Shown here one piece after another: positions 9,698 through 49,922 of a DNA stretch of 64,000 bases. A model generated the notes under the pieces. It ran no database searches and was not told the origin of the DNA. It saw only the letters and a list, made by a program, of their open reading frames with translations. The position numbers and the translations under genes are program-made. The number at the start of each line of letters is the position of its first letter. Within the stretch, counting starts at the first letter, position 1. Source of the stretch: Bombilactobacillus bombi (GTDB lineage: Bacteria > Bacillota > Bacilli > Lactobacillales > Lactobacillaceae); contig NZ_SCHP01000001.1 in the NCBI RefSeq assembly GCF_013607485.1, positions 62,001 to 126,000 on the forward strand, written 5' to 3'.

Positions 9698-10221
9698 TTA
9701 GTTTATTTTACGTTTAGGATTTAAAATTCCTAAAGGATCAAACAGATTCTTTATTTGATGTTGGATTTGGTCAACATCATTACCTAATTCTTCAACTGTC
9801 CACTGATTTTTAGACATACCTACAGCATGTTCACCGGAGATCGTTCCCCCAAGACTCAAGGCTTTTCTAAACAACATTCTCACAGCTTCCTTCACACTTT
9901 CTGGAGCCTCTGGCTGCTCATTCCATAATAAACTTGGATGCAAATTGCTATCACCGACATGACCAGCAGTATAAATATCAACTTGCTGTTTTTGTGAAAC
10001 TTCATCAATATAATCAACCATTTCTGCTAATTTAGATAAAGGCACTGCCATATATTCCATAATATGATATTTAGATTGTGCAAATACTGCCGGAAGCATA
10101 TCTTGCCGCAATTTCATAATTGCTGGGCTTCTTTGTCATCAACATGAACTTGGGCATGGGGTACCTGCGCTTTTAAGTATGCTAAGATTTGTTCTTTAGT
10201 ATAGGCTGTAAATACCGTCAT
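9698..10221 (-). pseudogene. internally deleted FAD-linked oxidase (glycolate oxidase GlcD / D-lactate dehydrogenase type)
   Basis: The last 139 codons encode a typical FAD-oxidase C-terminal domain: HVGDSNLHPSLLW, then GGTISGEHAVGMSK, then NLFDPLGILNPKR. Directly upstream, an ATG at 10221 with an AGGAAG Shine-Dalgarno opens a second frame (MTVFTAYTKEQILAYLKAQV and so on, about 35 residues). It stops at the junction around 10117, and its frame is offset from the C-terminal part. The start region and the last third of the gene survive, while the FAD-binding domain (roughly 300 residues in intact relatives) is missing. This is a large internal deletion with a frame break, so the gene is almost certainly inactive. 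Choosing GlcD over Dld is by overall look only. Confidence 0.85.
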
Positions 10222-36993: not shown

Positions 36994-37473
36994 TTATTTA
37001 TGATAAGCGGTACCGGCATTAATCATAAAGGCCCGATAAATTTGTTCTGACAAAACCAGCCTCATTAGTTGATGAGGTAAGGTAAAACGTCCAAAAGAAA
37101 TTGCTTGATTGGAACGCTGGCTAACTTGCGGGCTTAAGCCTAAAGAACCGCCAATGACAAAAACAATTTTACTATGGCCATAAGTTAATAAATCTGCAAT
37201 TTTAGCCGCAAAAACTTCTGATGTTAATTCTTTTCCTAAAATTTCTAAGGTAAAAACATAGTCCTCGGGGCTAATTTTTTGTAATATACGTTCGCCTTCA
37301 ATCTTTTTAACCTGTTCCATTTGCGCTGTACTTAAACTTTCAGGGGCCTTTTCATCTGGAACCTCAATAATTTTCAAATCACAATATGGCCGCAAACGCT
37401 GCGCATATTCTTGAATACCTTGTTTAAAAAATTTTTTCTTAATTTTTCCTACTGCAATAATTTTTATTTTCAT
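36994..37473 (-). CDS. rlmH: 23S rRNA (pseudouridine1915-N3)-methyltransferase
   Basis: A 159-residue SPOUT-class methyltransferase acting on helix 69 of 23S rRNA. The SAM-binding knot is [13 protein letters not shown] near residue 105 and the C-terminal segment is [19 protein letters not shown]. Full length. The ATG at 37473 has only a weak Shine-Dalgarno (GGTGG). Placement downstream of htrA is the order seen in many Lactobacillales. The gap before it carries the DnaA-box cluster. Confidence 0.96.
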
Positions 37474-37559
37474 TAATAGTTTTCCACCGTTTCATTGTTG
37501 TTCGATTTTTAGTTATTTGCCTATTTATCAAGGGTTTGAAAGGGTTTAACAAATAAATA

Positions 37560-37600
37560 TTTCCACTTATCAACAGGTTTTCCCCAGATAAGTGGAAAAC
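37560..37600. repeat. inverted repeat beside the DnaA-box cluster
   Basis: TTTCCACTTATC and GATAAGTGGAAA pair perfectly over 12 bases around a 15-base loop. The left arm overlaps the box-like TTATCAACA at 37567-37575. CTTTTTT follows on the + strand, but no + strand gene ends here, so a terminator role is unlikely. Confidence 0.7.
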
Positions 37601-37666
37601 TTTTTTCCACCTAGTGAATCCAGTTATACACATTATAAACAACTTTTTCCACATAAATGTGTATAA
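37567..37666. promoter_or_regulatory. cluster of DnaA-box-like sequences in the rlmH-htrA gap
   Basis: Two exact TTATACACA boxes lie in opposite orientation (37624-37632 on +, 37658-37666 on -). TTTTCCACA at 37645-37653 and TTATCAACA at 37567-37575 differ from TTATNCACA by one base. Further TTTTCCAC fragments lie at 37591-37611. The remaining gap bases hold the htrA terminator and AT-rich sequence. No dnaA gene is in the window. Confidence 0.6.
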
Positions 37667-37733
37667 CTTTTACCATTCATTATATTTTATCATCATAATT
37701 TTAAAATAAAATCCGATTATTAAAATCTATCCA

Positions 37734-37765
37734 ACAAAAAAACGTAAAGCCTGCGCCTTACGTTG
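37734..37765 (-). terminator. terminator of htrA and the wal operon
   Basis: On the minus strand AACGTAAGG/CTTTACGTT form the stem and TTTTTTTG follows. Confidence 0.85.
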
Positions 37766-37783: not shown

Positions 37784-39031
37784 TTAGTTTACCTTAGTTA
37801 GTTTAACATCTGCTGTTTGTGCTTTACCATTACGGTAGAACTGTAATTTAATCGTATCGCCCAAATTATGACTATAAAGTTGAGTATGCAAGTCAGCCAC
37901 ATTTTTAACTTTCTTATTATCTAAACCTACAATTACATCATATTTACGCAAACCAGCTTGACGAGCTACTGAATTAGCACTCACTGAACCGATTAAAACT
38001 CCTTCAGTGACATTATCAGGCAACTTCAGCACACTCCGCTGTTGACTTCTGGAGACTTGATCCAAGTCCACTACCTTAATTCCTAATTGTGGCCGTTGAA
38101 TTTTACCATTTTGCACAAGCTGGTTAATAATTTTAACTACTTCATTGCTAGGAATTGCAAAACCCATTCCTTCAACCGAAGTGCCATCTGTGCTTGCAGC
38201 CAATTTCATCGAATTAATACCAATAACTTGTCCGGCAGCATTTACTAATGGACCACCAGAATTACCAGGGTTAATTGCCGCATCAGTTTGTAATACTGTT
38301 GCTTGACCCGTTACTTGACCCGTTTTTTCATCCGTAGTATCAACTGTCCGGTTTTTAGCGGAAATAATACCCTCGGTTACTGAGGTTGCATACTTGCTGC
38401 CTAATGGTGAACCAATAGCTATTACTGACTCGCCAGGAGTTACAGCATCTGAATTGCCAAAAGCTGCTGTACTATGGATTTTATCAGCTGAAATTGACAA
38501 AACTGCCAGGTCAGTAATTGAATCAGTTCCCACTTTTTTAGCAGCCACCTTAGTACCATCACTTAAAATAACCTCTAGTTTTTCCGAACCGGCTACTACG
38601 TGATTATTAGTAACAATATAGGCGTTACCATTTTGCTTACTATAAATTACACCCGAACCTTCACTAGATTCTTGAAGTTTGCTTTTATCGGTCTTAGAAG
38701 AATCATCATCCCCATTACCATACAAACTGCCAAATAAGGCACTTAAACTATCATTATTTTCTTGTTGACGCTGATAATTAATTACCGAAACTACCGAACC
38801 CTTGACCTTCTTAAAAGCATTTGTCATTTGATTATTAGATTTAACAGTGACATTACTAATCTGCGTGGTTCCCGCTTTACCATTAACCGGAGCACTTTGA
38901 GTAGGGTTAGTAGAATTATTGGTATTATTGCCCCAATGGCTAAAGCCATAAAAACCTAAACCAACACCAATAAAGGCCGAAATTAAAGCCACAATGGCGA
39001 TTTTCCAGAGTCCTAAACTATTTCTCTTCAA
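37784..39031 (-). CDS. htrA: HtrA/DegP-type membrane-anchored serine protease
   Basis: A 415-residue quality-control protease. One N-terminal helix (residues ~10-30) anchors it outside the membrane, followed by a Ser/Asn/Thr-rich linker. The trypsin-like domain has His in VTNNHVVAGS, Asp in ITDLAVLSI and Ser in NPGNSGGPLVN. A single PDZ domain follows (GVLIGSVSANSVARQAGLRK). The start is TTG at 39031, with GGAGGGTG seven bases upstream. It lies downstream of walJ with a 121-base gap, which may hold its own promoter. Confidence 0.95.
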   Translation of the reverse strand: MKRNSLGLWKIAIVALISAFIGVGLGFYGFSHWGNNTNNSTNPTQSAPVNGKAGTTQISNVTVKSNNQMTNAFKKVKGSVVSVINYQRQQENNDSLSALFGSLYGNGDDDSSKTDKSKLQESSEGSGVIYSKQNGNAYIVTNNHVVAGSEKLEVILSDGTKVAAKKVGTDSITDLAVLSISADKIHSTAAFGNSDAVTPGESVIAIGSPLGSKYATSVTEGIISAKNRTVDTTDEKTGQVTGQATVLQTDAAINPGNSGGPLVNAAGQVIGINSMKLAASTDGTSVEGMGFAIPSNEVVKIINQLVQNGKIQRPQLGIKVVDLDQVSRSQQRSVLKLPDNVTEGVLIGSVSANSVARQAGLRKYDVIVGLDNKKVKNVADLHTQLYSHNLGDTIKLQFYRNGKAQTADVKLTKVN

Positions 39032-45436: not shown

Positions 45437-46867
45437 ATGAAAAGAAAAATATTTTCAGGATTAATGTTGTTAATTTTATGGTTAGTTTTACTTCCTGTTA
45501 CTATTGTTCATGCCCAAAAGGTCTACCAAATTGGTACTGATGTCACTTTTCCGCCATTTGAATTTGCCAATAATGATGATAATTATGTTGGCATTGACAT
45601 TGACATATTAAAAGCTATTGCCAAAGAAGAGGGTTTTAAAGTTCAGATTAAACCTGTAGGCTTTAACGCAGCAGTCCAAGCAGTTGAAGCTGGACAAATG
45701 GATGGTATTATTGCGGGGATGAACATTACTCCGGAAAGAAAAGTCAAATTAGACTTTTCCACCCCTTATTATCATTCTGGAGTAGTGATGGCTGTCAGAC
45801 ATAACAGCTCTCTTACCAAACTAAGCCAGCTTAAGGGTCAAAAAGTAGCAATTAAAACAGGCACAGCTGGAGCCGCATATGCCAACAGTATTAAAAGTAA
45901 ATATGGTTTTAAAACTGTCACTTTTGATGATTCCAATAACATGTATCAAGATGTAGTTACCGGCAATTCAGTAGCTTGCTTTGAAGACCAGCCGGTAATG
46001 CAGTATGGAATTCATCACGGAACTCCACTTAAGATAGTTACTGCACCTGCCAATACCGGCGATTATGGTTTTGCCGTTCGTAAGGGCCATAATCAAAAGC
46101 TGCTCCAGCAGTTTGATGCCGGTCTGAAAAAGATTAAGGCCAATGGTACTTATGATAAAATTAAAGCCCACTATCTTGGCACTAAACACCACAAAGCTCC
46201 AGCTCAGCCCCAAGAAGATCGCAGTTTCTTTGGTTTAATTAAACAAAATCAAGCAGCCCTGCTTAGTGGTTTAGGAGAAACAATTTGGCTGACAGTAGCG
46301 GCGATTTTATTTGCCACGATTTTTGGCATTATTATTGGTCTTTTAGGGGTTGTACCCAATAAATTCTGCCAAGGTCTCTCCACTACTATTATTTATATCT
46401 TTCGTGGCTTGCCCTTGTTAGTTTTAGCTTTATTCATCTACACGGGTATTCCCAGTTTGACCGGACAAAAAATTCCTGCCTTTCTAGCAGGAATTATTAC
46501 CTTGACCTTGAATGAAGGTGCTTATATTGCCGCCTTTGTCAAAGGAGGCATTCAAGCGGTAGATCCGGGGCAAATGGAAGCTGCCCGCAGCTTAGGTTTA
46601 CCGTTTGGCAAGGCCATGCGGCGGGTAATTTTACCGCAGGGTATTAAAATCATGATTCCATCTTTTATCAATCAGTTTATTATTACTTTAAAAGACACTT
46701 CTATTTTATCGGTCATTGGACTTCTAGAGCTTACCCAAACGGGTAAAATCATCATTGCCCGTAATCTAGAGGGCTTTAAAATCTGGGCAATTATTGCCTT
46801 GATTTATCTTATCATTATTACCCTACTGACTTGGCTATCTAATTGGGTTCAAAGGAGGATGCAGTAA
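45437..46867 (+). CDS. amino acid ABC transporter, substrate-binding/permease fusion (copy 1)
   Basis: A 476-residue GlnP-like fusion. After a signal-anchor (residues 1-26) comes a type 3 solute-binding domain (IGTDVTFPPFEFANNDDNYV, residues ~33-250), a short linker, then a five-helix permease domain with [17 protein letters not shown] and the ATPase-contact loop [17 protein letters not shown]. Probable polar amino acid uptake. No ATPase gene follows, although an AAAGGAGG identical in place to the RBS of the ATPase after copy 2 remains at its 3' end. The last ~790 bases are almost identical to copy 2. Confidence 0.9.
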   Translation: MKRKIFSGLMLLILWLVLLPVTIVHAQKVYQIGTDVTFPPFEFANNDDNYVGIDIDILKAIAKEEGFKVQIKPVGFNAAVQAVEAGQMDGIIAGMNITPERKVKLDFSTPYYHSGVVMAVRHNSSLTKLSQLKGQKVAIKTGTAGAAYANSIKSKYGFKTVTFDDSNNMYQDVVTGNSVACFEDQPVMQYGIHHGTPLKIVTAPANTGDYGFAVRKGHNQKLLQQFDAGLKKIKANGTYDKIKAHYLGTKHHKAPAQPQEDRSFFGLIKQNQAALLSGLGETIWLTVAAILFATIFGIIIGLLGVVPNKFCQGLSTTIIYIFRGLPLLVLALFIYTGIPSLTGQKIPAFLAGIITLTLNEGAYIAAFVKGGIQAVDPGQMEAARSLGLPFGKAMRRVILPQGIKIMIPSFINQFIITLKDTSILSVIGLLELTQTGKIIIARNLEGFKIWAIIALIYLIIITLLTWLSNWVQRRMQ

Positions 46868-48488: not shown

Positions 48489-49922
48489 ATGAATAAAAAA
48501 ATTGGATTATTATTAAGCCTGCTTTTTTTGTGGTTCTTTATCGGCCCCTTAAAAACCGTTCAGGCACAAAAAGTTTATCAAATTGGTACTGACGTAACTT
48601 ATCCGCCATTTGAATTTGCCAATAAAAACAACCAATATATAGGCATTGATATCGACATTATTAAAGCAATAGCTAAAGAAGAGGGCTTTCAAGTTCAGAT
48701 TAAACCTGTAGGCTTTAACGCAGCGGTCCAATCAATGGAGGCTGGACAACTTGATGGTGTTATTGCCGGGATGATGATTACTCCAGAAAGAAGGGTCAAA
48801 TTTGATTTTTCCCAGCCTTATTTTAATACTGGTATCATCATGGCTGTCGGCAAAAATAGTTCGATCAAATCTTTTCGCCAATTACGTGGACAAAAAGTTG
48901 CTTTAAAAACTGGTGCGGCCGCAGCCGCATATGCCAACAGTATTAAAAGTAAATATGGTTTTAAAACTGTCACTTTTGATGATTCCAACAATATGTATCA
49001 AGATGTAGTTACCGGCAATTCAGTAGCTTGCTTTGAAGACCAGCCGGTAATGCAGTATGCCATCAAACAAGGCACACCTCTCAAAATTCCGCTTAAACCT
49101 GCTAATAAAAGTACTTATGGTTTTGCCGTTCGTAAGGGTCATAATCAAAAGCTACTCCAGCAGTTTGATGCCGGTCTGAAAAAGATTAAGGCCAATGGTA
49201 CTTATGATAAAATTAAAGCCCACTATCTTGGCACTAAACACCACAAAGCTCCAGCTCAGCCCCAAGAAGATCGCAGTTTCTTTGGTTTAATTAAACAAAA
49301 TCAAGCAGCCCTGCTTAGTGGTTTAGGAGAAACAATTTGGCTGACAGTAGCGGCGATTTTATTTGCCACGATTTTTGGCATTATTATTGGTCTTTTAGGG
49401 GTTGTACCCAATAAATTCTGCCAAGGTCTCTCCACTACTATTATTTATATCTTTCGCGGTTTGCCCTTGTTAGTTTTAGCTTTATTCATCTACACGGGGA
49501 TTCCCAGTTTGACTGGACAAAAAATTCCTGCCTTTCTAGCAGGAATTATTACCTTGACCTTGAATGAAGGTGCTTATATTGCCGCCTTTGTCAAAGGAGG
49601 CATTCAAGCAGTAGATCCGGGGCAAATGGAAGCTGCCCGCAGCTTAGGTTTACCGTTTGGCAAGGCCATGCGGCGGGTAATTTTACCGCAGGGTATTAAA
49701 ATCATGATTCCATCTTTTATCAATCAGTTTATTATTACTTTAAAAGACACTTCTATTTTATCGGTCATTGGACTTCTAGAGCTTACCCAAACGGGTAAAA
49801 TCATCATTGCCCGTAATCTAGAGGGCTTTAAAATCTGGGCAATTATTGCCTTGATTTATCTTATCATTATTACCCTACTGACTTGGCTATCTAATTGGGT
49901 TCAAAGGAGAATGCAAGCATGA
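48489..49922 (+). CDS. amino acid ABC transporter, substrate-binding/permease fusion (copy 2)
   Basis: A 477-residue GlnP-like fusion with the same domain order as copy 1. The two differ over the first ~150 residues and around residues 200-215 of the binding domain. They are nearly identical at DNA level from [15 protein letters not shown] to PVMQY and from [16 protein letters not shown] to the end. Substrate range may therefore differ while the membrane part is the same. Its stop overlaps the ATPase gene start (ATGA). Confidence 0.92.

Follow-up and report, generated by a model that had tools for sequence, protein, structure and literature searches.

A conserved DnaA-box cluster between rlmH and htrA of Bombilactobacillus bombi as a probable DnaA sink outside oriC

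The window analyzed here is a 64-kb stretch of the Bombilactobacillus bombi genome (C76:62001-126000; genome of 1.81 Mb in 164 contigs) in which a cluster of DnaA boxes lies in the gap between rlmH and htrA, followed to the right of htrA by walJ and the wal operon, and we indeed confirmed this gene order as it had been given in a preliminary description of the sequence. RlmH (36994..37473, minus strand) is a SPOUT methyltransferase known in Bacillus subtilis as YydA and matches the structure PDB 1to0 ("UPF0247 protein yyda") over its full length (E 1e-53). The neighbor upstream of the cluster, htrA (37784..39031, minus strand), encodes trypsin-like and PDZ domains and is set apart from the cluster by a terminator-like hairpin with a T tail at its 3' side (37741..37764, minus strand). 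Elsewhere in the window, two open reading frames of amino-acid ABC transporters (45437-46867 and 48489-49922) share identical C-terminal halves and differ in their N-terminal halves, which reads as a segmental duplication or gene conversion, and a short open reading frame at 9698-10117 resembles, by eye, a C-terminal fragment of an FAD-linked oxidase and is possibly a gene remnant.

The core of the DnaA-box cluster (37567..37666, no strand assigned) comprises six box positions that form two modules of three boxes, 67 bp apart, and this stretch contains two exact and three one-mismatch boxes. Module 1 consists of an exact box, TTATACACA, in sense orientation to rlmH (37658..37666, minus strand) and two one-mismatch boxes antisense to rlmH, TTTTCCACA (37645..37653, plus strand) and TTATAAACA (37633..37641, plus strand). 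Module 2 is made up of the box-like sites TTTTCCACT (37591..37599, minus strand) and TTTTCCCCA (37578..37586, plus strand) and the one-mismatch box TTATCAACA (37567..37575, plus strand), for which the majority of the genus carries TTATCCACT, TTATCCCCA, and TTATCCACA, respectively. One more box-like site, TTTTCCACC (37480..37488, plus strand; genus majority TTTTCCACA), is found directly upstream of the rlmH start. The second exact TTATACACA box (37624..37632, plus strand) is absent from the box positions common to the genus and forms an inverted repeat with the one at 37658-37666. The preliminary description had already recognized these two exact boxes in inverted orientation, the one-mismatch boxes TTATCAACA and TTTTCCACA, and several box fragments, which we locate as TTTTCCAC at 37480 and 37603 on the plus strand and at 37591-37599 on the minus strand, and it had missed the third one-mismatch box, TTATAAACA. 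The perfect inverted repeat that it reported is present as well (37622-37634 / 37656-37668) and amounts to two exact boxes facing each other, with arms of 13 bp instead of the claimed 12 bp.

Within the window, no second 150-bp stretch with two boxes at up to one mismatch was detected. When the 64-kb window was simulated 200 times with a first-order Markov model, the densest 110 bp held at most four boxes with no more than one mismatch and usually two, compared to five in the real cluster. A pattern search of all 1.8 Mb of the genome counted 98 copies of TTATNCACA and 58 of the backward word, and this cluster is the only place with paired TTWTNCACA boxes in convergent or tandem arrangement within 30 bp, though the close-pair scan is weak by itself since backward control patterns also yield one or two places. 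Two further pairs of exact boxes that we considered as additional clusters (C87:77381/77489 and C87:87331/87553) were rejected because they fall within long open reading frames that are, by eye, hsdM-like and coaA-like. What lifts the cluster above chance is not the close-pair scan but conservation.

For this comparison, RlmH searches supplied loci of 60 relatives, of 151 genomes at the class level and 143 at the order level, and 80 named loci. Lactobacillaceae are represented by many genera, and tens of further families of the class have members in the set. Across 173 loci, 484 exact boxes (5.6 per kb) fall in the 500 bp immediately upstream of rlmH, while permuted words of the same letters occur in the same bin with a mean of 5.9 and a highest count of 90 for any single word. 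The next 500 bp farther upstream hold 48 exact boxes in the same loci, and out to 5 kb on either side of rlmH, all remaining 500-bp bins show 0.0 to 0.2 boxes per kb. The cluster noticed in this gap is widespread: when exact boxes were counted in the 1.5 kb upstream of rlmH at 206 non-duplicate Bacilli loci, 148 carried two or more, 123 three or more, and 49 none. A genus-level alignment of the seven shared box positions gave an identity of 0.87 inside the boxes versus 0.59 outside, a contrast that none of 216 circular shifts equaled, and within the genus, the boxes thus appear as islands of conservation in the alignment. Coincidence, with AT-rich words crowding together by chance in a long gap, would be compatible with the presence of only two exact boxes in the window and with the one or two close pairs that backward patterns also produce genome-wide, but the permuted words, the Markov simulations, and conservation all speak against it, and with the boxes conserved in this way, we consider the idea refuted and give it practically no credence.

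Counting exact boxes alone overlooks boxes of the TTTTCCACA type, and for this reason the genus member G005 was nearly missed: its cluster has a single exact box, and TTTTCCACA boxes predominate both there and at oriC. The region upstream of dnaA was read in four genus members, two of which (G005, locus L294, and G002, locus L297) have no exact TTATNCACA there but four and five TTTTCCACA boxes, respectively; their htrA-rlmH clusters retain one and two exact boxes, and their origin boxes may thus be weaker than those of the cluster.

The cluster belongs to neither rlmH nor htrA. Eight genomes of Lacticaseibacillus and Lapidilactobacillus have rlmH apart from htrA and without an exact box upstream, and it is the 3' flank of htrA that holds two to six exact boxes; the next open reading frame in the seven Lacticaseibacillus genomes is HesB-like and in some of them is followed by a small heat-shock protein, both identified by eye. 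Similarly, eight Bacillaceae genomes were examined, and in seven of them three to eight boxes lie in the 3' flank of the htrA copy located 34 to 56 kb from dnaA. The other htrA copies of these seven have none, and the genes that come after the htrA-linked cluster vary (manA-like, ROK-like, or ABC-2-like by eye). The eighth of these genomes, Paraliobacillus, has no boxes in the 3' flank of htrA. At five loci of Gracilibacillus, Sediminibacillus, and Terribacillus (L237 and L240-L243), we observed four to eight exact boxes after the origin-proximal htrA and then unrelated genes. In Listeria-like and other genomes (L252, L253, L273, L122, and L267), the cluster follows htrA by 160 to 590 bp and rlmH is 2.7 to 5.3 kb away from htrA. 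Conversely, the cluster keeps to rlmH with htrA 2.5 to 5.4 kb off at five other loci (L284, L289, L047, L255, and L269), and it is situated between divergent htrA and rlmH genes in families with inverted htrA.

These rearrangements bear directly on the possibility that the cluster is a DnaA-controlled promoter at which bound DnaA represses or activates rlmH (or a divergent htrA) and thereby ties ribosome methylation or surface proteolysis to replication. Such a role would fit the box position directly before the rlmH start, the tandem pair of boxes 30 to 60 bp upstream of rlmH in many loci, and the listing of yyzF-yydABCD as directly DnaA-regulated in B. subtilis (PMC8203912), and it may well hold locally. 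However, a single-promoter role cannot account for conservation of a cluster that is kept when either rlmH or htrA is displaced: it stays behind htrA in Lacticaseibacillus and Lapidilactobacillus with rlmH elsewhere, unrelated genes come after it in a number of Bacillaceae and Listeria-like genomes, and across species, the boxes are not tied to the promoter of one gene. In addition, a consensus scan found no strong sigma-70-type promoter for rlmH in the window, which is weak evidence. Control of rlmH as the sole explanation is ruled out by the persistence of the cluster where rlmH has left, just as a role tied to the 3' end of htrA is ruled out by its persistence with rlmH where htrA is displaced or inverted. 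Overall, we regard promoter control as an unlikely main function, albeit the one to be taken most seriously after the DnaA sink that we favor below.

The preliminary description placed the cluster away from dnaA, which is true within the window, and yet dnaA and oriC are found only ca. 47 kb away on the same contig. A DnaA domain hit lies at C76:145963-146448 on the minus strand with an array of boxes upstream of it (C76:146862-147036), while the cluster is located at 99.6 kb of C76. GC skew, computed over contig C76 as the one contig that was read whole, stays below zero for most of the stretch between 15 and 145 kb and becomes positive at 145-150 kb, so that dnaA and the skew switch both map to ca. 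145 to 150 kb and not to the cluster, which places the cluster inside one replication arm. Like oriC at dnaA, it consists of DnaA boxes in an AT-rich gap, but it has neither a GC-skew switch nor adjacent dnaA/dnaN. The comparison to streptococci made previously was borne out: in streptococcus-like genomes, a family read from gene order and distance, the homologous gap likewise has two exact boxes but lies 3 kb from dnaA with htrA in the opposite direction. This homologous gap is what recommends the proposal that a secondary or relic origin persists near rlmH-htrA, dating from an ancestor in which these genes adjoined oriC much as they do in streptococci. Against it stand the sign change of the GC skew at dnaA instead of at the cluster, the box arrays that the compared genomes have at dnaA in addition to the cluster, and the distance of tens of kb from dnaA in most genomes. 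This origin hypothesis is therefore unsupported, and we judge it highly improbable.

Proximity to oriC is nevertheless not strict. In 61 genomes with both loci on one contig, the distance from dnaA to the rlmH locus ranges from 3 kb to 1.09 Mb, and some genomes have the cluster as far as 540 kb from dnaA. The mean number of boxes near rlmH declines from 4.2 at less than 80 kb from dnaA to 2.0 at more than 350 kb (Spearman -0.37, p 0.004, with kinship ignored), in part because some clusters stayed with htrA beyond the 1.5-kb limit. At the far end of this range is genome G014 (L121), whose chromosome of 2.27 Mb has walJ-htrA-rlmH across from dnaA at a distance of 1.09 Mb. Exact boxes are absent from this locus, and the region upstream of dnaA contains five; as a single case, this is suggestive of box loss far from oriC.

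The boxes follow a recurrent order. They are oriented against rlmH in 490 cases and with it in 164. Of the adjacent boxes no more than 40 bp apart, 139 pairs share one orientation, most of them with starts 9-13, 20-22, or 33-35 bp apart, 55 pairs converge at spacings of 11-15, 21-24, and 33-34 bp, and only 9 diverge. The module of the genus begins with a sense box, continues with antisense boxes 13 and ca. 25 bp farther on, and occurs twice, 67 bp apart. With spacings close to multiples of 11 bp, the boxes would lie on one face of the helix, an arrangement that would fit the expectation for cooperative DnaA binding. Ordered boxes with fixed spacing and orientation, together with the repeated three-box module of the genus, could also point to a datA- or DARS-like locus that alters the nucleotide state of DnaA beyond mere binding. 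Like the cluster, datA, DARS1, and DARS2 of Escherichia coli are DnaA-box loci outside oriC, and they affect initiation, but they act with IHF/Fis on the DnaA nucleotide state (PMC5295017). Since datA and DARS need IHF and Fis while B. subtilis lacks datA, DARS, and IHF according to a 2026 review (PMC13220808), a mechanism of this kind seems very unlikely. A broader version appears doubtful to us but somewhat less so, namely an ancestral DnaA control locus of Bacilli whose box modules would actively set DnaA availability or state as a Gram-positive counterpart of datA/DARS and would be selected for the cluster and its chromosomal place, not for the neighboring genes.

The closest known parallel is found in B. 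subtilis, where the region upstream of yydA (= rlmH) is among the eight strongest DnaA-binding regions (region 8) and contains seven sites that span yyzF, with a Kd of 0.16 uM for ATP-DnaA (PMC4447404). As related in PMC5295017 and PMC13220808, Okumura et al. (2012) observed early initiation upon deletion of all six clusters outside oriC and partial relief upon restoring one; going by position, the yydA cluster is one of the six. The same two papers also state that removal of a single cluster has little effect and that the importance of titration is disputed. Both in B. subtilis and in our window, several boxes lie upstream of rlmH, outside but near oriC, and the boxes studied here are clustered beyond chance and conserved in intermediate lineages. 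The differences are that DnaA binding to seven sites is proven for B. subtilis, while in the window there are fewer exact boxes, htrA is directly upstream, and binding is predicted. We therefore classify the cluster, as the best reading, among the orthologs of the B. subtilis yydA cluster, in its lactobacillar form.

Our favored interpretation, which we hold to be likely though far from certain, is that the boxes form an ancestral cluster outside oriC, which by its position is the ortholog of the B. subtilis yydA cluster and acts as a DnaA sink. DnaA would be expected to bind it cooperatively because of the tandem and convergent arrays with start-to-start distances near 10-14, 20-24, and 32-35 bp on one helix face, and DnaA held at the cluster would be withheld from oriC. 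Given its location ca. 47 kb from oriC, the cluster would be copied soon after initiation, so that the number of sinks would rise early, and this rise would help delay re-initiation; the cluster may in addition influence rlmH transcription locally. Titration had been one of several options raised before, and the match to the B. subtilis cluster makes it the best supported of them. With the sites, their conservation, arrangement, position, and independence from the flanking genes as observations, we infer that DnaA binds the cluster in this organism and that titration is its main selected role. That only two exact boxes are left in the window counts against titration.

DnaA-box clusters outside oriC are already known as a kind of locus. 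We did not find the depth of conservation or the independence from neighboring genes in the literature that we searched, which is no proof that they are unreported. The retention of the cluster from lactobacilli to other families of Bacilli amid changes of the genes around it speaks for selection on a role of the cluster as such, which probably helps to time replication as a DnaA sink and not as a second origin. It bears on the question of how Gram-positive bacteria pace initiation to growth without the Hda, SeqA, datA, and DARS of E. coli and singles out one short gap that can be altered in many genetically tractable species.
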